Origin: Rhizobium sp. NZLR1
Lineage (GTDB): Bacteria > Pseudomonadota > Alphaproteobacteria > Rhizobiales > Rhizobiaceae
DNA length: 64,000 nt
Reading direction: 5' to 3'
Assembly (NCBI RefSeq): GCF_017357385.1
Contig: NZ_CP071632.1
Location: 1,865,501 to 1,929,500 of the forward strand
A model generated the notes under the pieces. The model did not search any database, had not been told where the DNA came from, and saw only the letters and a program-made list of their open reading frames with translations. The number at the start of each line of letters is the position of its first letter. The stretch's first letter is position 1. Both the position numbers and the translations under genes were made by a program. Shown here piece after piece: positions 5,479 to 42,878 of the stretch.

Positions 5479-5602
5479 AGGCTGATCCTCCCGGAGCATG
5501 ACGATATTCCTGCCATTATCCTCCAGCTTTGGCGGATTTTCTTTTCTTTCATCTTGGCTCTTGCCATAATGGTGGCAGATTTTCCCGAGTGTTGGGCAGA
5601 AA

Positions 5603-6064
5603 ATGAAAGAAACTGGGAACTTTCGCCGCACCCTTCTGCAGCTCATCCAGGCCGACGGCAGCCTGTCGCTGGCAGATCTGGCTGAGAAGGCCGGCATGTC
5701 GCAGAGTTCGGCCTGGCGGAAGATCCAGGAACTGGAAGCCGACGGCGTCATCCGCAAGCGCGTGACGCTGCTCGATCCCGGCAAACTTGATCTCAAACTC
5801 TGCGTGATCGCCCATGTCACCCTGGAGGATCATCACGAAGAGGCGGTGGCCTCTTTCGCTTCGGTGGTGCTGGAGCGGCCGGAGATCATGGAGTGTTACG
5901 CCTTGTCAGGCGCTTTCGATTACATGCTGAAGATCCGGGCGAGGGACGTGGAAAGCTACGAAGCTTTCATGACCCGCTACCTCATGCGCAACCCGCATGT
6001 GCGCATGGTGGTCTCGAGCTTCGTGCTGCGCGAGCTGAAATTCTCGACCGAACTGCCGCTTTGA
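5603..6064 (+). CDS. Lrp/AsnC family regulator, divergent from phhA
   Basis: The protein has 153 residues. The N-terminal winged helix (residues 5-65; LADLAEKAGMSQSSAWRKIQ) has the usual recognition helix. The C-terminal RAM/ligand domain (residues 70-150) contains CYALSGAFDYMLKIRARDVE. It is divergent from phhA across 124 bp, which suggests it controls phhA, as Lrp-type proteins often control adjacent amino acid catabolic genes. The effector is probably an aromatic amino acid (inference). Confidence 0.9.
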   Translation: MKETGNFRRTLLQLIQADGSLSLADLAEKAGMSQSSAWRKIQELEADGVIRKRVTLLDPGKLDLKLCVIAHVTLEDHHEEAVASFASVVLERPEIMECYALSGAFDYMLKIRARDVESYEAFMTRYLMRNPHVRMVVSSFVLRELKFSTELPL

Positions 6065-6106: not shown

Positions 6107-6607
6107 TCATCGCGCGCTGTCGCCGTGCCAGATGCCGGGCATGCGCACCGGAAAGCCCTCGAAGGTCTTCAGCGTATCGAGCACGATCGAGGTCTTCACG
6201 TGCTGCACAGACTCGTGCGGCAACAGAACGTCGTTGACGAATTTGGAGAGGTCGGCGAGCCCGCGGGTCGCGACCTTCAGGTGATAGTCCATCTCCCCGG
6301 TCAGTGCATAGGCTTCGAGAACCTCCGGCAGCCCGTTGATCAGCTGGGAAAATCGCTGGGCATTGTCTCTGTTGTGGGTGGCAAGCGTCACGGAAATGAC
6401 CACCAGCATATCCAGCCCCAGTTTTTCCCGGTCAAGGTAAGCCCGATAGCTGCGAATATAGCCCTCGGCCTCCAGTCTCGTCCGCCGGCGCGAGCATTGC
6501 GACGGGGAAAGCGCGATGCGATCGCCGAGCTCGTTGTTCGTCAGCCTGCCGTCCTTTTGCAGTTCCTGTAGTAGGCGCAAATCCAGTTTGTCGAGCTGTT
6601 CATCCAT
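6107..6607 (-). CDS. Lrp/AsnC family regulator, divergent from hppD
   Basis: The protein has 166 residues. The helix-turn-helix lies at residues 8-60 (LTNNELGDRIALSPSQCSRR). The RAM domain at residues 70-150 contains AYALTGEMDYHLKVATRGLA. It is divergent from hppD across 130 bp, so tyrosine-pathway regulation is the likely role. It is only distantly like the phhA-linked regulator, so this is not a recent tandem duplication. Confidence 0.9.
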   Translation of the reverse strand: MDEQLDKLDLRLLQELQKDGRLTNNELGDRIALSPSQCSRRRTRLEAEGYIRSYRAYLDREKLGLDMLVVISVTLATHNRDNAQRFSQLINGLPEVLEAYALTGEMDYHLKVATRGLADLSKFVNDVLLPHESVQHVKTSIVLDTLKTFEGFPVRMPGIWHGDSAR

Positions 6608-26062: not shown

Positions 26063-26288
26063 GGGATGTTCCGTGAAGTGGGGCTGGTGAATAGGTAGCG
26101 TCCTTCGGCCCCTTTGCAAACAGCTATCAGGCGCGTTCATTCCCGCTGGAATGAGAAGCGCAAGTGAATTTTCGTCCACGGGCGTTGAACACTGAGTTCT
26201 TCAAGGCGGGACTGTGTTCGGAAATCCGCGCATGATAAAGATCCTCTCGATCACGACATTCAACCCACTGCGTGAAGGAAGACAGAAG

Positions 26289-26885
26289 ATGGCGAAGGTT
26301 CTCGTCCTTTATTATTCGGCTTATGGCCATATCGAAACCATGGCCTATGCGGTTGCCGAAGGCGCCAAGTCGGCTGGTGCCGACGTCACCGTCAAGCGCG
26401 TTCCGGAACTGGTTCCGGAAGAGGTCGCCAAGGCTTCCTACTATAAGGTCGACCAGGCCGCTCCGATCGCCACCGTCGACGAACTGGCGGACTATGACGC
26501 GATCATCGTCGGTGCCGGCACCCGCTTCGGCACGGTCGCCTCGCAGATGCGCAATTTCTGGGATCAGACCGGCGGCCTCTGGTTTGCCGGCAAGCTCGTC
26601 GGCAAGCTCGGTTCGGTCTTCACCTCGTCGGCGACCCAGCACGGCGGCCAGGAATCGACCATCCTCGGCTTCATCCCGACCTTCCTGCACCAGGGCATGG
26701 TCGTCGCCGGCCTGCCTTATGCCTTCCAGGGCCAGATGGGTACCGAGGAAGTCAAGGGCGGCTCGCCCTACGGCGCCTCCACCATCACCAACGGCGACGG
26801 CTCGCGCCAGCCTTCCGAGATCGAGCTCGAAGGCGCGAAATACCAGGGCGCCCATGTCGCCAAGCTTGCTGCCAAGCTCGCCTGA
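26289..26885 (+). CDS. wrbA: NAD(P)H:quinone oxidoreductase WrbA
   Basis: The protein has 198 residues. It is a flavodoxin-like FMN enzyme that reduces quinones by two electrons, with an antioxidant role. The ATG at 26289 gives [19 protein letters not shown], the FMN phosphate loop. Further signatures are [20 protein letters not shown] and SATQHGGQE. An in-frame extension upstream to 26214 has no support. A terminator hairpin follows. Confidence 0.95.
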
Positions 26886-26903: not shown

Positions 26904-26936
26904 AAGGCGCGGCGAGCGTAAGCTTGCGGCGCCTTT
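26904..26936 (+). terminator. Terminator after wrbA
   Basis: The arms AAGGCGC (26904-26910) and GCGCCTT (26929-26935) close a hairpin with further internal pairing of GCG/CGC and AGC/GCT. It ends in a short T-run (CTTTCC), 18 bp after the wrbA stop. Confidence 0.65.
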
Positions 26937-27008
26937 CCGTTTGATGGGAAATACTTGCCTGATCATTCGCCGGTGCCACCGGCAAAGCGGGGCATGACTG
27001 TTTGTTGG

Positions 27009-27297
27009 TGGTGCGGACGGCGGGGGTCGAACCCGCAAAGCCTAGGCCGAGGGATTTTCTTACCAGCTACGACTTTCGCCGCCGCCTTCCGGCGTTTGTG
27101 GTCTGGACTATACCTTCACCCTAGCGTCTGCCTTAGGTGCTGCCCGTCTAGTCTCTACACCTTCCCCTTGCGGGGCTTGGCTCGGGATTGCCATCTGACA
27201 GGTTTCCCCGACTTTGAGCAGTTCTACATCAGGCGTTTCCGCCAGTGCACTCAATTTTGTCTAAGTCCCTTGTGTCTACCAATTCCACCACGTCCGC
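27009..27297 (-). tRNA. trnL: tRNA-Leu(UAA), interrupted by a group I intron
   Basis: Read on the minus strand, exon 1 (27297-27263, 35 nt) starts GCGGACGTGGTGGAATTGGT and ends AGGGACTT. Exon 2 (27058-27009, 50 nt) starts AAAATCCCT, has the T-arm GCGGGTTCGACCCCCGC and ends in an encoded CCA. Joined, they give an 85-nt class II tRNA with a 7-bp acceptor stem (GCGGACG/CGTCCGC) and the anticodon loop CTTAAAA, hence UAA for leucine. The 204-nt intron lies between U34 and A35. As a continuous tRNA the gene would not fold. Confidence 0.93.
27059..27262 (-). ncRNA. Group I self-splicing intron in the anticodon loop
   Basis: The intron has 204 nt and no ORF. The 5' exon end ACUU pairs with GAGU inside the intron, which puts the required U-G wobble at the 5' splice site (P1). 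The intron ends in G, as group I introns do. Conserved core strings are present in order: TGGCAATCCCGAGCCAAG, AAGGTGTAGAGACTAGACGG and AAGGTATAGTCCAGACC. They are close to the P6, R and S segments of the cyanobacterial and plastid trnL(UAA) intron, and the insertion point (U^AA) is the same. Autocatalytic splicing before tRNA maturation is expected. Confidence 0.9.
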
Positions 27298-27783
27298 GTG
27301 GTTCTTCCTGCTAACAAAGAGAGACGGTTTTCTCAACCGATATTCAGGGGTGGGCATGCGATTCCGTTTCAAAGTCTGGAGGCCGCAATCACCCTCCACA
27401 ATTTTATATCGGCTTTGAGAGATGAGGTCGGATATTGGGCACTGGGGATATGGCGTTCCAAAACGCTGGCCGCTTCGAATGTCCAGCTGAATTCGGCAGT
27501 AAAGCGAAGATCTTGCCTGCTGATTAGAGCTTTGAAAAGCAACGATACGGCACGAATTTTCCGATTTATCTTGCCGATATGCGAGGGCGCGACGGTCGAC
27601 TGCGAACATTATGCGAGTCAGCGTAGAAAACTTGGCACAACCCCTGCGACACAAGCTTGTTGAATTTCGCAGGACATTGGGACAAAGTACTGGCAGGGGT
27701 AGTGTTTGCGATTTCTACTGTTGCAATACGTGCACTTCACTTTTCATTGTGAATGCCGGGACATGTGGTGACTAAACGGCAAA
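27298..27783. other. Non-coding AT-richer gap upstream of the regulator gene
   Basis: About 486 bp with lower GC than the surrounding genes. ORFs on either strand are short and look random. It presumably contains the promoters of the tRNA-Leu gene (minus) and of the regulator (plus). No repeat or integrase is visible. Confidence 0.5.
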
Positions 27784-29715
27784 ATGGCTTTTGTTCTGAA
27801 GACCTTCGGGACGTTGCAGCTCGTTGACGGAGATGGGAACGCTGTTGCGTTTCCCGAGAAAGGCCTGCTGCTTCTCGCCTATTTGTTCACAACCGATCAA
27901 GGTTCGGCAGATCGAACGACCTTGGCTCGCTTACTATGGGGCGAGGCCGACAGGGACGTTGCACTTTCGACTTTACGCAAGGTGATTTCGCGCATTAAGG
28001 CCCGCCAAATCGATCTCGGGGTAAACATCCTTTCATCAAAGGGCAACATACTCACCCTTGAACGGGCGTCTCTGTCTTCCGACATTCTGCTATCGAACCA
28101 GGAGGACGAGGTTGAGCCGTTTGCCCGACTGAGACAGCTGGTGAAACTGATGAACCAGCCTTTTCTGGGGGCGGTTCACAGCCATAGCCGTCAGTTTCAG
28201 CGGTGGCTTGCCGAACGGGAAAACTACCATATCGAGTTTCTCGCAAATACATTGAGAACGGCGTCCCGATTGGCCGAGTCGGGAAAGGAATCCGAACTCC
28301 TGAGGAAGGCAGCGGTTATCCTGTTTCGGACGGAGCCGAGGGATCCGGAAACGCTGCAATTGCTCATCCGGATATTCAACGCGGAAGAGGAAGTTGAATC
28401 CCTCCGGAACTATTTCGAACAGCGGCGTAGTGCGACTTCGAAAGGCATCGCCCCGCGCACCGGATCCGATGACGGTGATGCAAAACCTCTCCGTCCGACA
28501 TCCATGTCGTCAAAGGCGAAACTCGACGCGGCGCTTCCCCTTGAGCCCGAAGATATCAGCATTGCCATTCCCCGCTTGGTGCTGCTTCCGCCCAGGAACC
28601 AATCCGTTCGGCCTCAAGCTGGTTTTCTAGCCGCATCGTTGGTGGAGGATATCACGATCGGATTTTGCGTCTTCAACAGCCTGGAGGTCATAGCCCCGTA
28701 TTCGGCGGTTCAGATCGGCCACCAGGTGGAGACGCAGAAAGCCTTCTTTGAACGGCATCGCGTCAACTATATCCTCGACACCCGGATCAGCAATTCCGGC
28801 GATGAAGTGACCCTGTTCGCCCAGCTGATCTTTTTCGATCAGAATCAAATAGTTTGGGCCGAAAGGTTCAGCCTCGATCGTATGGATCTCGCCAGAGACA
28901 GGAGAGTTGTTGCCCGGCAGATCGCTCTCTCCGTGTCCAGCGAAATCGAGCGCCATGAGGCGTTGCGCGAAGATCTGAACCCGATCGCTTACCATCGATA
29001 TCTTGTCGGCAGGCGGCACCTGGCGCGGCTGACACTTCCGAACCTGCGGCGCGCCCGCAAGGAAATGAAGGCCGCGCTCAGCGAAAGCCCCGATTTCGCG
29101 CCGGCGCAGAGTTCTATGGCGCGCACCTACTCCAAGGAATGGTTGTTGACGGCCCGAGGTGATATCGATCTTTTGCAATTGGCTGAGACTTTCGCAAAGC
29201 AGGCCACCGAGATGCGTTCGGACTTTGCCGATGGCTATCGCGAGCTCGGTGTTGCCAAACTATTGCAGGGCGCGTTTGATGAAAGCGCCGAAGCAATGGA
29301 AATTGCAGAAAGCCTTGCGCCACACTATGCCGACGTGATTGCCGACTACGCGGACACGTTGGTTCATTGTTCGCTCCCCGCCATGGCCTTGCGAAAGATC
29401 GAGCGGGCAATCGAGCTGAACCCCCTCGGTCCCGATACCTATTTCTGGACTGCTGCGGGAGCAAACTATGCCCTCGGCGAATTCGAAGCTTCGCTGGACT
29501 ATATCGGGCAGATGGCCGACCCCAATTTAGCGGACAGGTTGTCCGCCGCAAGTTGGGCCATGTTGGGTCATCAGGACAAGGCGCGGGTCTTTGTACGAAG
29601 GTTTCGTGAAGGCAACCCGGACTTCGATGTGGACAAGTGGTTGTCTGCAGTTCCAAGTAAAGAGCAATGGCATAAAGATCTTTATCGTGAAGGCCTGAAG
29701 AAAGCTGGATTTTAA
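27784..29715 (+). CDS. Winged-helix (BTAD/SARP-like), TolB-like, TPR regulator
   Basis: The protein has 643 residues. Residues 5-95 form an OmpR/SARP-type winged helix (LKTFGTLQLVDGDGNAVAF, TTLARLLWGEADRDVALSTL). Residues 100-215 form a BTAD-like helical region. Residues 260-400 form a TolB/FlgO-like domain as seen in adenylate cyclase and CadC-like proteins (LLPPRNQSVRPQAGFLAASL, YILDTRISNSGDEVTLFAQL, QIVWAERFSLDRMDLARDRR). Residues 405-640 form TPR repeats. No membrane helix is seen. It probably controls transcription of itself and the 72-codon gene 25 bp downstream. Local base composition is more AT-rich than its neighbours. Confidence 0.75.
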   Translation: MAFVLKTFGTLQLVDGDGNAVAFPEKGLLLLAYLFTTDQGSADRTTLARLLWGEADRDVALSTLRKVISRIKARQIDLGVNILSSKGNILTLERASLSSDILLSNQEDEVEPFARLRQLVKLMNQPFLGAVHSHSRQFQRWLAERENYHIEFLANTLRTASRLAESGKESELLRKAAVILFRTEPRDPETLQLLIRIFNAEEEVESLRNYFEQRRSATSKGIAPRTGSDDGDAKPLRPTSMSSKAKLDAALPLEPEDISIAIPRLVLLPPRNQSVRPQAGFLAASLVEDITIGFCVFNSLEVIAPYSAVQIGHQVETQKAFFERHRVNYILDTRISNSGDEVTLFAQLIFFDQNQIVWAERFSLDRMDLARDRRVVARQIALSVSSEIERHEALREDLNPIAYHRYLVGRRHLARLTLPNLRRARKEMKAALSESPDFAPAQSSMARTYSKEWLLTARGDIDLLQLAETFAKQATEMRSDFADGYRELGVAKLLQGAFDESAEAMEIAESLAPHYADVIADYADTLVHCSLPAMALRKIERAIELNPLGPDTYFWTAAGANYALGEFEASLDYIGQMADPNLADRLSAASWAMLGHQDKARVFVRRFREGNPDFDVDKWLSAVPSKEQWHKDLYREGLKKAGF

Positions 29716-29740
29716 ACATCAATCGTTAGAGGGCAAAAAC

Positions 29741-29959
29741 ATGGCTACAGTTGTTGTTATTAGTGTTGAAGGTCAAGACGGGCTCTGGGTCGCTGATCTG
29801 GACGCCGGCACAGTACTGCCGCTCCCGGCCCCAAAGGCGGGTGGCTTGAAAGTGGTGACCGATCTTCGCGCCACCGGCGCGACGGTCACAAAGGGCGTGA
29901 ATTTGGCAGTCACCGTCAAGTCGGCAGAGGCGGCGTTCTCCGGCCATTATGACGGCTAG
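29741..29959 (+). CDS. Small protein downstream of the regulator
   Basis: The protein has 72 residues, starts 25 bp after the regulator stop and has an AGAGGG site before the ATG. It has no Cys, no signal peptide and no membrane span. The sequence alternates hydrophobic strands and turns (MATVVVISVEGQDGLWVADL, GATVTKGVNLAVTVKSAEAA) and ends FSGHYDG. A small beta-rich protein is likely. I recognise no family. Position suggests it is the output, or a modulator, of the regulator. Confidence 0.6.
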   Translation: MATVVVISVEGQDGLWVADLDAGTVLPLPAPKAGGLKVVTDLRATGATVTKGVNLAVTVKSAEAAFSGHYDG

Positions 29960-30346
29960 TGGAAGTGCTATAGCGCGGTTACGTCAGACGCGAAATAGAC
30001 CTGTAACACTCTGAATTTCGCATGATTTTATTCGGCTTCCGACGAAAGAATTATGTGGAAACGCGCGAGACGGCGGCGAGCGGAAATTGACTTGCTCGCC
30101 GTCGAGCATTAGGCATGCACTGTCAAAGTCGTTTTCGATGCCGATCAAGTGTACCGGGTTTCAGCGACAATCTATCGGCCTCGGTCATACGGGTTCGATT
30201 CCGGTCGCCCCGGACCAGCTTCACAATATCGTTTGAATATGCATGTATATTGTGGATATATGCGTTCTATTGCTTGACGGGGGCATTTTCGGTGCAAGGA
30301 TTGCGCCGCGGCGGTTGAGTAAGTGTTGTCTTCTGGGAGTAAGACG
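29960..30346. other. Non-coding gap with hairpin and tRNA-like fragment
   Basis: The first part holds an imperfect hairpin (GACGGCGGCGAGC at 30068-30080 with GCTCGCCGTC at 30094-30103), possibly a terminator without T-run. At 30182-30217 the string ACGGGTTCGATTCCGGT, followed shortly by GGACCA, resembles a tRNA T-arm and CCA end. The stem has a mismatch and no 5' half is present. It may be the remnant of an attachment site. Confidence 0.4.
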
Positions 30347-41759: not shown

Positions 41760-42878
41760 ATGCGTGTCGGTTGCCCGAAGGAAATCAAGAACCATGAATA
41801 CCGTGTCGGCCTGACGCCGGCTTCGGTGCGTGAATATGTTGCCCATGGCCATGAGGTCTGGGTTGAAACCAAGGCGGGCGCCGGCATCGGCGCCGATGAC
41901 GGCGCCTATGCTGCGGCTGGCGCGAAGATCGCCGCCTCCGCCAAGGATATTTTTGAAAAATGCGATATGATCGTCAAGGTGAAGGAGCCGCAGCCCTCCG
42001 AATGGGCGCAGCTCCGCGACGGTCAGCTTCTCTACACCTATCTGCATCTGGCCCCCGATCCCGATCAGACCAAGGGTCTGATCGCCTCCGGCGTCACCGC
42101 GATCGCCTATGAGACGGTGACCGACGAACGCGGCGGCCTGCCGCTGCTGGCGCCGATGTCGGAGGTTGCCGGTCGCCTGTCGATCCAGGCGGGCGCCACC
42201 GCCCTGCAGAAGGCCAATGGCGGCCTCGGCATCCTGCTCGGCGGCGTGCCCGGCGTTCTGCCGGCCAAGGTCGCGGTCATCGGCGGCGGTGTCGTCGGAC
42301 TGCATGCCGCCAGGATGGCCGCCGGCCTCGGCGCCGATGTCAGCATCCTCGACCGGTCGCTGCCGCGCCTGCGCCAGCTCGACGATATCTTCGCAGGCCG
42401 CATCCACACGCGTTATTCCAGCATCCAGGCTTTGGAGGAGGAAGTCTTCACGGCCGATCTCATTATCGGCGCCGTGCTGATCCCAGGTGCCGCCGCGCCG
42501 AAGCTCGTCACCCGCGAAATGCTATCCGGCATGAAGAAAGGCTCGGTCATCGTCGATGTCGCCATCGACCAGGGCGGCTGCTTCGAGACCTCGCATGCGA
42601 CGACCCATTCCGATCCGACCTATGAGGTCGACGGCGTCGTTCATTATTGCGTCGCCAACATGCCGGGCGCGGTACCGGTCACCTCGGCGCATGCCCTGAA
42701 CAATGCCACGCTGGTCCACGGCCTGGCGCTTGCCGATCGCGGCCTGCGCGCCATCGCCGAAGACAAACATCTGCGGAACGGCCTGAACGTGCACAAGGGC
42801 CGCATCACCAACAAGCCAGTCGCCGAGGCGCTCGGCTACGAGGCTTTCGCACCGGAAAGCGTATTGAACGTAGCGTAA
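41760..42878 (+). CDS. ald: Alanine dehydrogenase
   Basis: The protein has 372 residues and interconverts L-alanine and pyruvate with NAD. The ATG at 41760 follows GAGAGGAACGCAA and gives [20 protein letters not shown], the exact family N-terminus. The NAD motif is [20 protein letters not shown]. The substrate region [12 protein letters not shown] and the late [16 protein letters not shown] are present. In rhizobia this enzyme handles alanine in free-living cells and bacteroids. Confidence 0.96.

Follow-up and report, generated by a model that had tools for sequence, protein, structure and literature searches.

Group I introns in the anticodon loops of bacterial tRNA genes have been known since 1990. 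The trnL(UAA) intron of cyanobacteria and plastids has been described as old and mostly vertically inherited, and an intron in tRNA-Leu(UAA) was reportedly also found in a gammaproteobacterium in 2002. For Archaea, introns have been proposed to act as shields against integration (Randau and Soll, as cited in a passage of PMC3293823). Among the openly licensed papers listed by our searches, none connected the group I introns of bacterial tRNA genes with integrative elements, an absence that carries little weight.

The window analyzed here, which is the whole 64-kb stretch of Rhizobium sp. NZLR1 DNA, contains on its minus strand (27009–27297) a tRNA-Leu(UAA) gene that is split between U34 and A35 by a 204-nt group I intron, as a sequence-only reading of this DNA had claimed. 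ARAGORN with introns allowed identified one tRNA in the window, namely tRNA-Leu(taa) at c27009-27297, with a 204-nt intron and a complete class II cloverleaf. In its default setting the program returned no tRNA in the 64-kb window, and the expectation that a standard tRNA search overlooks the gene was thus borne out (none by default, one with introns). The 5΄ exon (tRNA positions 1–34; 27263..27297, minus strand) ends in ...GACTT and pairs with GAG of the intron to form P1, with a U.G pair at the 5΄ splice site. The intron (27059..27262, minus strand) has G as its last base, and the 3΄ exon (27009..27058, minus strand) includes an encoded CCA. Both the splice-site U that pairs with G in P1 and the final intron G, as read from the sequence, are features of group I introns. 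We also ran the RF00028 check that had been proposed, and obtained a minus-strand match at 27080..27272 that covers the whole model (positions 1–253) with 58.9 bits (gathering score, 50; E 2.2e-12), indicating the conserved catalytic core and secondary structure of the group. This was the only Rfam match at gathering score within the window and the only RF00028 match at E ≤ 0.001 across the 6.86-Mb genome. The core strings quoted earlier are present in the intron, and its insertion site is the one that characterizes the cyanobacterial trnL(UAA) intron lineage. The split gene would yield a working tRNA-Leu(UAA) by self-splicing.

A second, intact tRNA-Leu(UAA) gene, with the present locus silent, would have counted against the reading, and none was found in the genome by RF00005, by a search with the spliced tRNA or by a pattern for the intronless gene. 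RF00005 gave 43 matches in the 6.86-Mb genome, a list that is incomplete (for example, Ile(GAU) and Ala(UGC) are absent) and whose Leu members were CAA, UAG, CAG and GAG. The spliced tRNA as a genome-wide query retrieved its own two exons only, and the intronless Leu(UAA) pattern had no match in the window genome. Apart from the split gene, these searches therefore detected no tRNA-Leu(UAA) gene in the genome. A group I intron also interrupts a tRNA-Arg(CCU) gene of this genome (G000:C1:4181919-4182029, locus L330); it was found by pattern and was not listed by RF00028 at E ≤ 0.001. The corresponding pattern occurred in 30 of 394 genomes of the family. Of 31 tRNA-Arg(CCU) intron loci, 7 have a truncated, Arg-like 5΄ piece upstream and none has one downstream.

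RF00028 matched 6 of 41 genomes (including that of the window), all of the same genus, and the five relatives share the split gene. The model is too strict for surveys, and we therefore used DNA patterns; these are strict as well, so that all tallies are lower bounds. A pattern consisting of the tRNA 5΄ half and the bases that follow matched 131 of 148 Rhizobium genomes, and in 25 the half was followed by the start of the intron. Every Rhizobium intron gene listed has the D-arm GTGGTG...GACAC (U11-A24), and every intronless gene listed has GTGGCG...GACGC (C11-G24). At the level of the family, the strict split-gene pattern was found in 10 of 394 genomes, distributed over 5 of 109 genera, and at that of the class in 12 of 385. 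Named genomes were also scanned by pattern, as a sample and not a census, which gave at least 118 stretches, mostly from Alphaproteobacteria of many orders; Saprospiraceae, Cytophagales, Acidobacteria, Carnimonas, Tahibacter and Burkholderiales were also among the matches listed. That tRNA-Arg(CCU) is the best-known host of alphaproteobacterial tRNA introns holds historically, but introns in Leu(UAA) occur widely, though sporadically, across the class. In an intron tree, the window intron grouped with those of Rhizobium, Roseibium, Tepidamorphus, another genus of Rhizobiaceae and an alphaproteobacterial MAG (SH-aLRT 84–92). The single Anabaena intron included, whose sequence is provisional, fell on a very long branch with weak support, and the same sequence used as a query found no plasmid.

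Split tRNA-Leu(UAA) genes were also observed in viral and plasmid DNA. The pattern matched 26 stretches of IMG/VR viral contigs (L200–L225), with both exons parsed in 22; several of these genes lie within tRNA arrays, and homologous intronless tRNA-Leu genes are annotated in Synechococcus phages. The huge uncultured phage LR756501 (735 kb) has a split tRNA-Leu(UAA) gene with a 205-nt intron (L297, 3001–3291), which, like the intron of phage Daredevil described below, was not listed by RF00028 at E 1e-4. The presence of split tRNA genes in phage contigs contrasts with a passage of a 2014 review, according to which phage group I introns were then known in protein genes only (PMC3984707). A second type of split tRNA-Leu(UAA) gene lies unannotated near aac(3)-IId in two plasmid records (L039, 6001–6311, NC_004464.2; L040, 6001–6312), and a stretch similar to it occurs in 1285 of 72,556 plasmid records. 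Its intron scored 36.8 bits with RF00028, below the gathering score. By eye, the left end of this second-type gene starts at GGACTTAAAA in a non-tRNA context and resembles an element end; close copies are found in the Rhizobiaceae genome G803, in Devosia and in Enterovirga. In genome G007, an RF00028 match below the cut-off (L037, 1501–1785; 43.9 bits) seems by eye to lie in a phage-like protein gene. In a Burkholderiales MAG, ARAGORN reported a tRNA-Leu(caa) with a 235-nt intron (L186, 1415–1734); its neighbors are a split Leu(UAA) gene and a member of the integrase family described below. Locus L084 has two split Leu(UAA) genes that differ in type, one on each strand of a 0.8-kb stretch (5517–5826, plus; 6160–6268, minus), the second without a parsed 3΄ exon.

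The relatives in Rhizobium provided a first indication of how the split gene is carried. In four genomes, the intron gene and an intronless piece lie 2.5 to 7 kb apart on opposite strands, and in a fifth (G163) the piece is 9 kb from the intron gene. These intronless copies are fragments: G088 has positions 1–67 and 22–85, 9.4 kb apart, and the other four show the 5΄ part only. In the five element loci ARAGORN found no intronless tRNA-Leu; in two intronless relatives it found one intact gene each. In a genome-wide search of the five element genomes with the spliced tRNA the best tRNA match listed was a fragment in each. Adjoining every 5΄ fragment is a gene of about 408 codons (429 in one genome) whose product belongs to an integrase family (phrog_1, E 1e-33); the other four integrases are 85–86% identical to that of G088. 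The integrase matched in 14 of 148 Rhizobium genomes, and identity was at least 85% in five, all of which are among the 25 intron carriers. G092 and G163 encode a MobA/MobL relaxase; G092 also encodes a T4SS coupling protein, and homologues of these two proteins occur in G078 and G142. For the elements of G078, G092, G142 and G163, an additional 20 kb each did not reveal a far end. The G088 element carries YcaO and TfuA genes (L249, 9412–11327) beside a regulator of the type found in the window, a possible azole peptide cargo.

Ordinary elements also seem to use the tRNA-Leu(UAA) gene as a hot spot. In six intronless Rhizobium genomes (G022, G079, G098, G111, G136 and G140), an apparently normal 5΄ half is accompanied by a second, diverging one, and G014 and G149, likewise intronless, have the diverging half only. 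Truncated 5΄ halves are thus not special to intron carriers; ordinary elements at this gene would be expected to leave them. In G009 and G099 (L300 and L301), integrases 63% identical to that of the element lie directly beside complete, intronless tRNA-Lys genes, and the integrase family thus seems to have members that leave the tRNA intact.

By matching 3΄ halves to broken 5΄ halves, we identified two further elements, of 36.1 kb in Afipia and of 15.2 kb in the alphaproteobacterium G303. With the 9.4-kb element of G088, this makes three complete elements in which both broken native halves are visible. The joined flanks give a tRNA-Leu(taa) in all three, and no single junction gives a tRNA; the host gene is broken and rebuilt at neither junction in these two-ended elements as well as in the five Rhizobium loci. 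The cores shared end to end measure 46 bp in G088, 12 bp in Afipia (GGACTTAAAATC) and 24 bp in G303, and all of them span U34|A35. Once spliced, the element tRNA would match the core at 42/46, 12/12 and 24/24 bases, respectively, and the core letters ACTTAAAA are kept in the element exons (23/23). In the stretches fetched, the exact core occurs at the two element ends only. Because the spliced exons would hold the core, which is split at U34|A35, the intron would leave the element without a third core. In Afipia, the element encodes an OLD-like nuclease, DNA methylases, relaxases and a coupling protein, and a relaxase together with a coupling protein was found in two elements. A tyrosine integrase lies beside the att site in related loci; none was found near the left end of the G303 element, where 3.1 kb was scanned (L229). 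The intronless Leu(UAA) pattern matched 7 of 22 host genomes, and in five of these the match was the broken half itself. The remaining two, G937 and G953 (both MAGs), have another, intact intronless Leu(UAA) gene, which indicates that not all hosts need the split gene.

We then compared loci fetched by the tRNA-plus-intron pattern alone, and these contain the same integrase family. Among 135 parsed intron genes, the integrase lies <300 bp upstream on the same strand in 20, and a truncated tRNA-Leu 5΄ half lies ≤3.5 kb upstream on the same strand in 23 (24 if L199, a chance match by eye, is included). No truncated half was found downstream on the same strand in any of the 135, and the lone opposite-strand match, in L084, is the second split gene of that locus. 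An upstream 5΄ half is missing from 112 of the 135 genes and a nearby integrase from 115, many of the loci being short. These counts come from loci that are partly non-independent (for example, L156/L242 are identical, and L187/L246 and L036/L170 each come from one genome), and 9 of 174 loci had no parsed 3΄ exon. Where broken halves could be aligned (L112, a chance match, and L187, a self match, are dropped or doubtful), they end after ACTT-AAAA, mostly with 4 to 9 bases in common with the 3΄ exon. Over the acceptor, the 3΄ exon pairs better with the 5΄ exon of the element than with the broken half in 15 of 24 cases, equally well in nine and less well in none; for the anticodon stem, pairing is better in 18 of 24, equal in five and worse in one (L199 included in both). 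Since the 3΄ exon pairs with the 5΄ exon of the element and not with the broken one, the element carries a complete split gene. The same pairing excludes an arrangement that we had considered, in which the element brings only a 5΄ half and the intron and uses the 3΄ half of the host.

We consider it likely, with good though not full confidence, that such an element brought the split gene of the window as its rescue tRNA, with an intron that would shield the att core within the gene from the integrase. The tyrosine integrase would recombine at the anticodon stem-loop of the host tRNA-Leu(UAA) gene, an activity presumed here. Integration would break the host gene, leaving its 5΄ half at one end and its 3΄ half at the other, and would restore it at neither junction. 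The element would bring a complete Leu(UAA) gene split at U34|A35, which would presumably become a working tRNA by self-splicing. An uninterrupted copy would itself be a target of the element's own integrase, because its exons would contain the att core, with deletions or repeated insertion as the result; the intron would split this core. In the window lineage, the integrase and the native 5΄ half would have been lost and the native 3΄ half would have decayed, and the split gene would have been retained because the cell cannot do without it. A protective role appears to be the simplest reading of the position of the intron.

A blastn search of phage records with the window gene gave a match in Gordonia phage Daredevil. 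ARAGORN with introns allowed places there a tRNA-Lys(UUU) gene with a 238-nt intron at 34/35 (41820–42131 of the record, minus strand), and the 15-mer of its spliced anticodon region recurs without interruption about 150 bp away, between the tRNA and the integrase gene. In the parts of PMC10865867 that treat this phage, Daredevil is described as not encoding its own tRNA and is reported to form clear plaques, from which it follows that its split tRNA may not rescue lysogeny. The anatomy of Daredevil thus fits a rescue tRNA whose core is split by an intron, and the clear plaques speak against full rescue.

The strongest competing explanation, which we nevertheless judge unlikely, accepts the rescue tRNAs as real and regards the intron as a passenger that entered the anticodon loop by reverse splicing or homing, was kept because it is neutral once spliced and is of no use to the element. 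Group I introns generally reside in conserved RNA sites and splice out (as stated in a section of PMC3984707), most intron genes now lack a nearby integrase, and related integrases stand beside intronless tRNA-Lys genes; against a passenger stand the position of the intron within the att core of each of the three complete elements, the core letters retained by the element exons, and the tRNA-Lys intron of an unrelated phage, which is at the same place beside an uninterrupted core.

Returning to the rescue tRNA of an integrative element, we compared the window locus itself with those of its relatives. The gene to its left (26214..26885, plus strand), which we take to be WrbA-like, adjoins Leu(UAA) in intronless relatives too. 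Colinearity with these relatives extends along the left flank as far as the tRNA and begins again 3 to 4 kb further on, in the right flank. Compared with G088, the common left flank ends at position 26936 of the window and is followed by the split tRNA and a regulator, and then by the right flank. This regulator (27784..29715, plus strand), presumably activator-like, is a 643-aa protein with a weak TPR match; a homologue with 85% identity is encoded inside the G088 element, and none was matched in the intronless loci L256 and L257. At the start of the right flank, local alignment detected a decayed native tRNA-Leu(UAA) 3΄ half (30163..30217, plus strand), which spans approximately positions 28–85, has lost the anticodon and lies where the inserted segment ends on the right, an arrangement also seen in the G088 element. 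Its alignment score against the native half of G088 was 28.5, compared with 17.5 for the best of 300 shuffles and 13.0 for a control region; the relative G097 also keeps a decayed 3΄ half (24.0), and three other relatives were at chance level. The intervening stretch of about 3.2 kb (26937..30162), between outer flanks shared with G088 in the locus alignment, where L253 position + 19499 gives the window position, would be what is left of an element. We call the locus a remnant because the element-family integrase had no match at E 1e-30 in the window genome; the native 5΄ half was sought in the window and was not found. In a tree of close introns, the G088 element copy fell inside the window's clade (inner clade 98/96; the window sequence is sister to it, 86/76).

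The decayed 3΄ half raises the support for an element origin and lowers that for homologous recombination and for vertical descent. We also counted in its favor the regulator shared with G088 and the nested position of the G088 intron. Against it, we counted the lack of the integrase and of the native 5΄ half in the window genome, and the inversions by which the gene order and direction of the window, the G088 element and the intronless relatives differ. The many intron genes that lack a 5΄ half or an integrase, the far ends missing in four of the five Rhizobium cases, and the related integrases beside intronless tRNA-Lys genes count against it as well. On balance, these sequence comparisons lend good support to the view that the window gene, once the rescue tRNA of an integrative element, has been left stranded.

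It is improbable, in our estimation, that ordinary homologous recombination at the tRNA locus brought the intron gene into this Rhizobium lineage with no element involved at the locus. The window gene does stand between the same outer flanks as the native gene of its relatives, with no integrase, and Rudi et al. are said to have described in 2002 a precedent of recombination at the cyanobacterial locus. However, such an exchange leaves aside the roughly 3.2 kb of extra DNA, with its regulator of the G088 element, that ends in a decayed native 3΄ half, and the G088 element intron nests in the clade of the window. Vertical descent from an alphaproteobacterial ancestor, perhaps shared with cyanobacteria, with loss from most lineages, is the least probable of all: the site is that of the intron in cyanobacteria and plastids, and the intron is spread widely in Alphaproteobacteria in clusters that partly follow taxonomy, but its occurrence is sporadic (12/385 class and 10/394 family genomes by the strict pattern), intron and exon type change together within one genus, and broken native genes lie beside the split gene, with a decayed one in the window. 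A simple ancient shared intron was dropped as the main reading after the survey of the genus and the discovery of the broken native halves. The sequence-only reading had left the choice between an old shared intron and a transferred one. Transfer is favored, because in the Rhizobium genes listed the intron always comes with its own exon type, the split gene is found on integrative elements and a trace of an element remains in the window; what moves, however, would be not the intron alone but the whole split gene, carried by integrative elements.

A much wider proposal is one that we hold tentatively, doubting it slightly more than we credit it. Group I introns in bacterial tRNA anticodon loops may be working parts of integrative elements, splitting the att core in the rescue tRNA and so denying it to the element's own integrase and to rivals with the same target. 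Scattered split tRNA genes, including that of the window, would then be leftovers of decayed elements, and an origin of this kind could also apply to the introns of tRNA-Arg(CCU) and perhaps to the forerunner of the trnL intron in cyanobacteria and plastids. The element-borne split tRNA genes offer a testable reason for the existence of self-splicing introns in bacterial tRNA anticodon loops, along with a vehicle for their patchy spread. With them, tRNA-dependent integration, so far that of actinophages, reaches mobilisable elements in Alphaproteobacteria. Annotation whose tRNA search does not allow for introns misses the rescue tRNA and also, as it did for Daredevil, the underlying logic of the element. 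An essential tRNA of some strains would hang on a ribozyme delivered by mobile DNA.

Among known systems, the cyanobacterial and plastid trnL(UAA) intron agrees with that of the window in isotype, in the U34|A35 site and in the core strings. It differs in having been described as old and mostly vertical, whereas the Leu(UAA) intron described here is tied to integrative elements. The Agrobacterium tRNA-Arg(CCU) intron is likewise a group I intron of the anticodon loop in Rhizobiaceae, but resides in another tRNA. The tmRNA T-loop group I introns are likewise located in a gene often used for the integration of islands, and the relevant part of PMC11915505 draws no link between intron and integration. 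In Archaea, the gain of a tRNA-Thr(GGU) intron by way of a mobile element, as set out in part of PMC3293823, shows the same order of truncated tRNA 5΄ fragment, recombinase and intron-bearing tRNA; that case differs in that the introns are archaeal, the one gained lies at 24/25 and a single natural population is concerned. The nearest logic is that of the tRNA-dependent lysogeny of actinobacteriophages, as presented in portions of PMC10865867. That account, in the portions concerned, deals with phages and does not mention tRNA introns, whereas the elements described here are mobilisable elements of Alphaproteobacteria whose tRNA is split by an intron inside the core.
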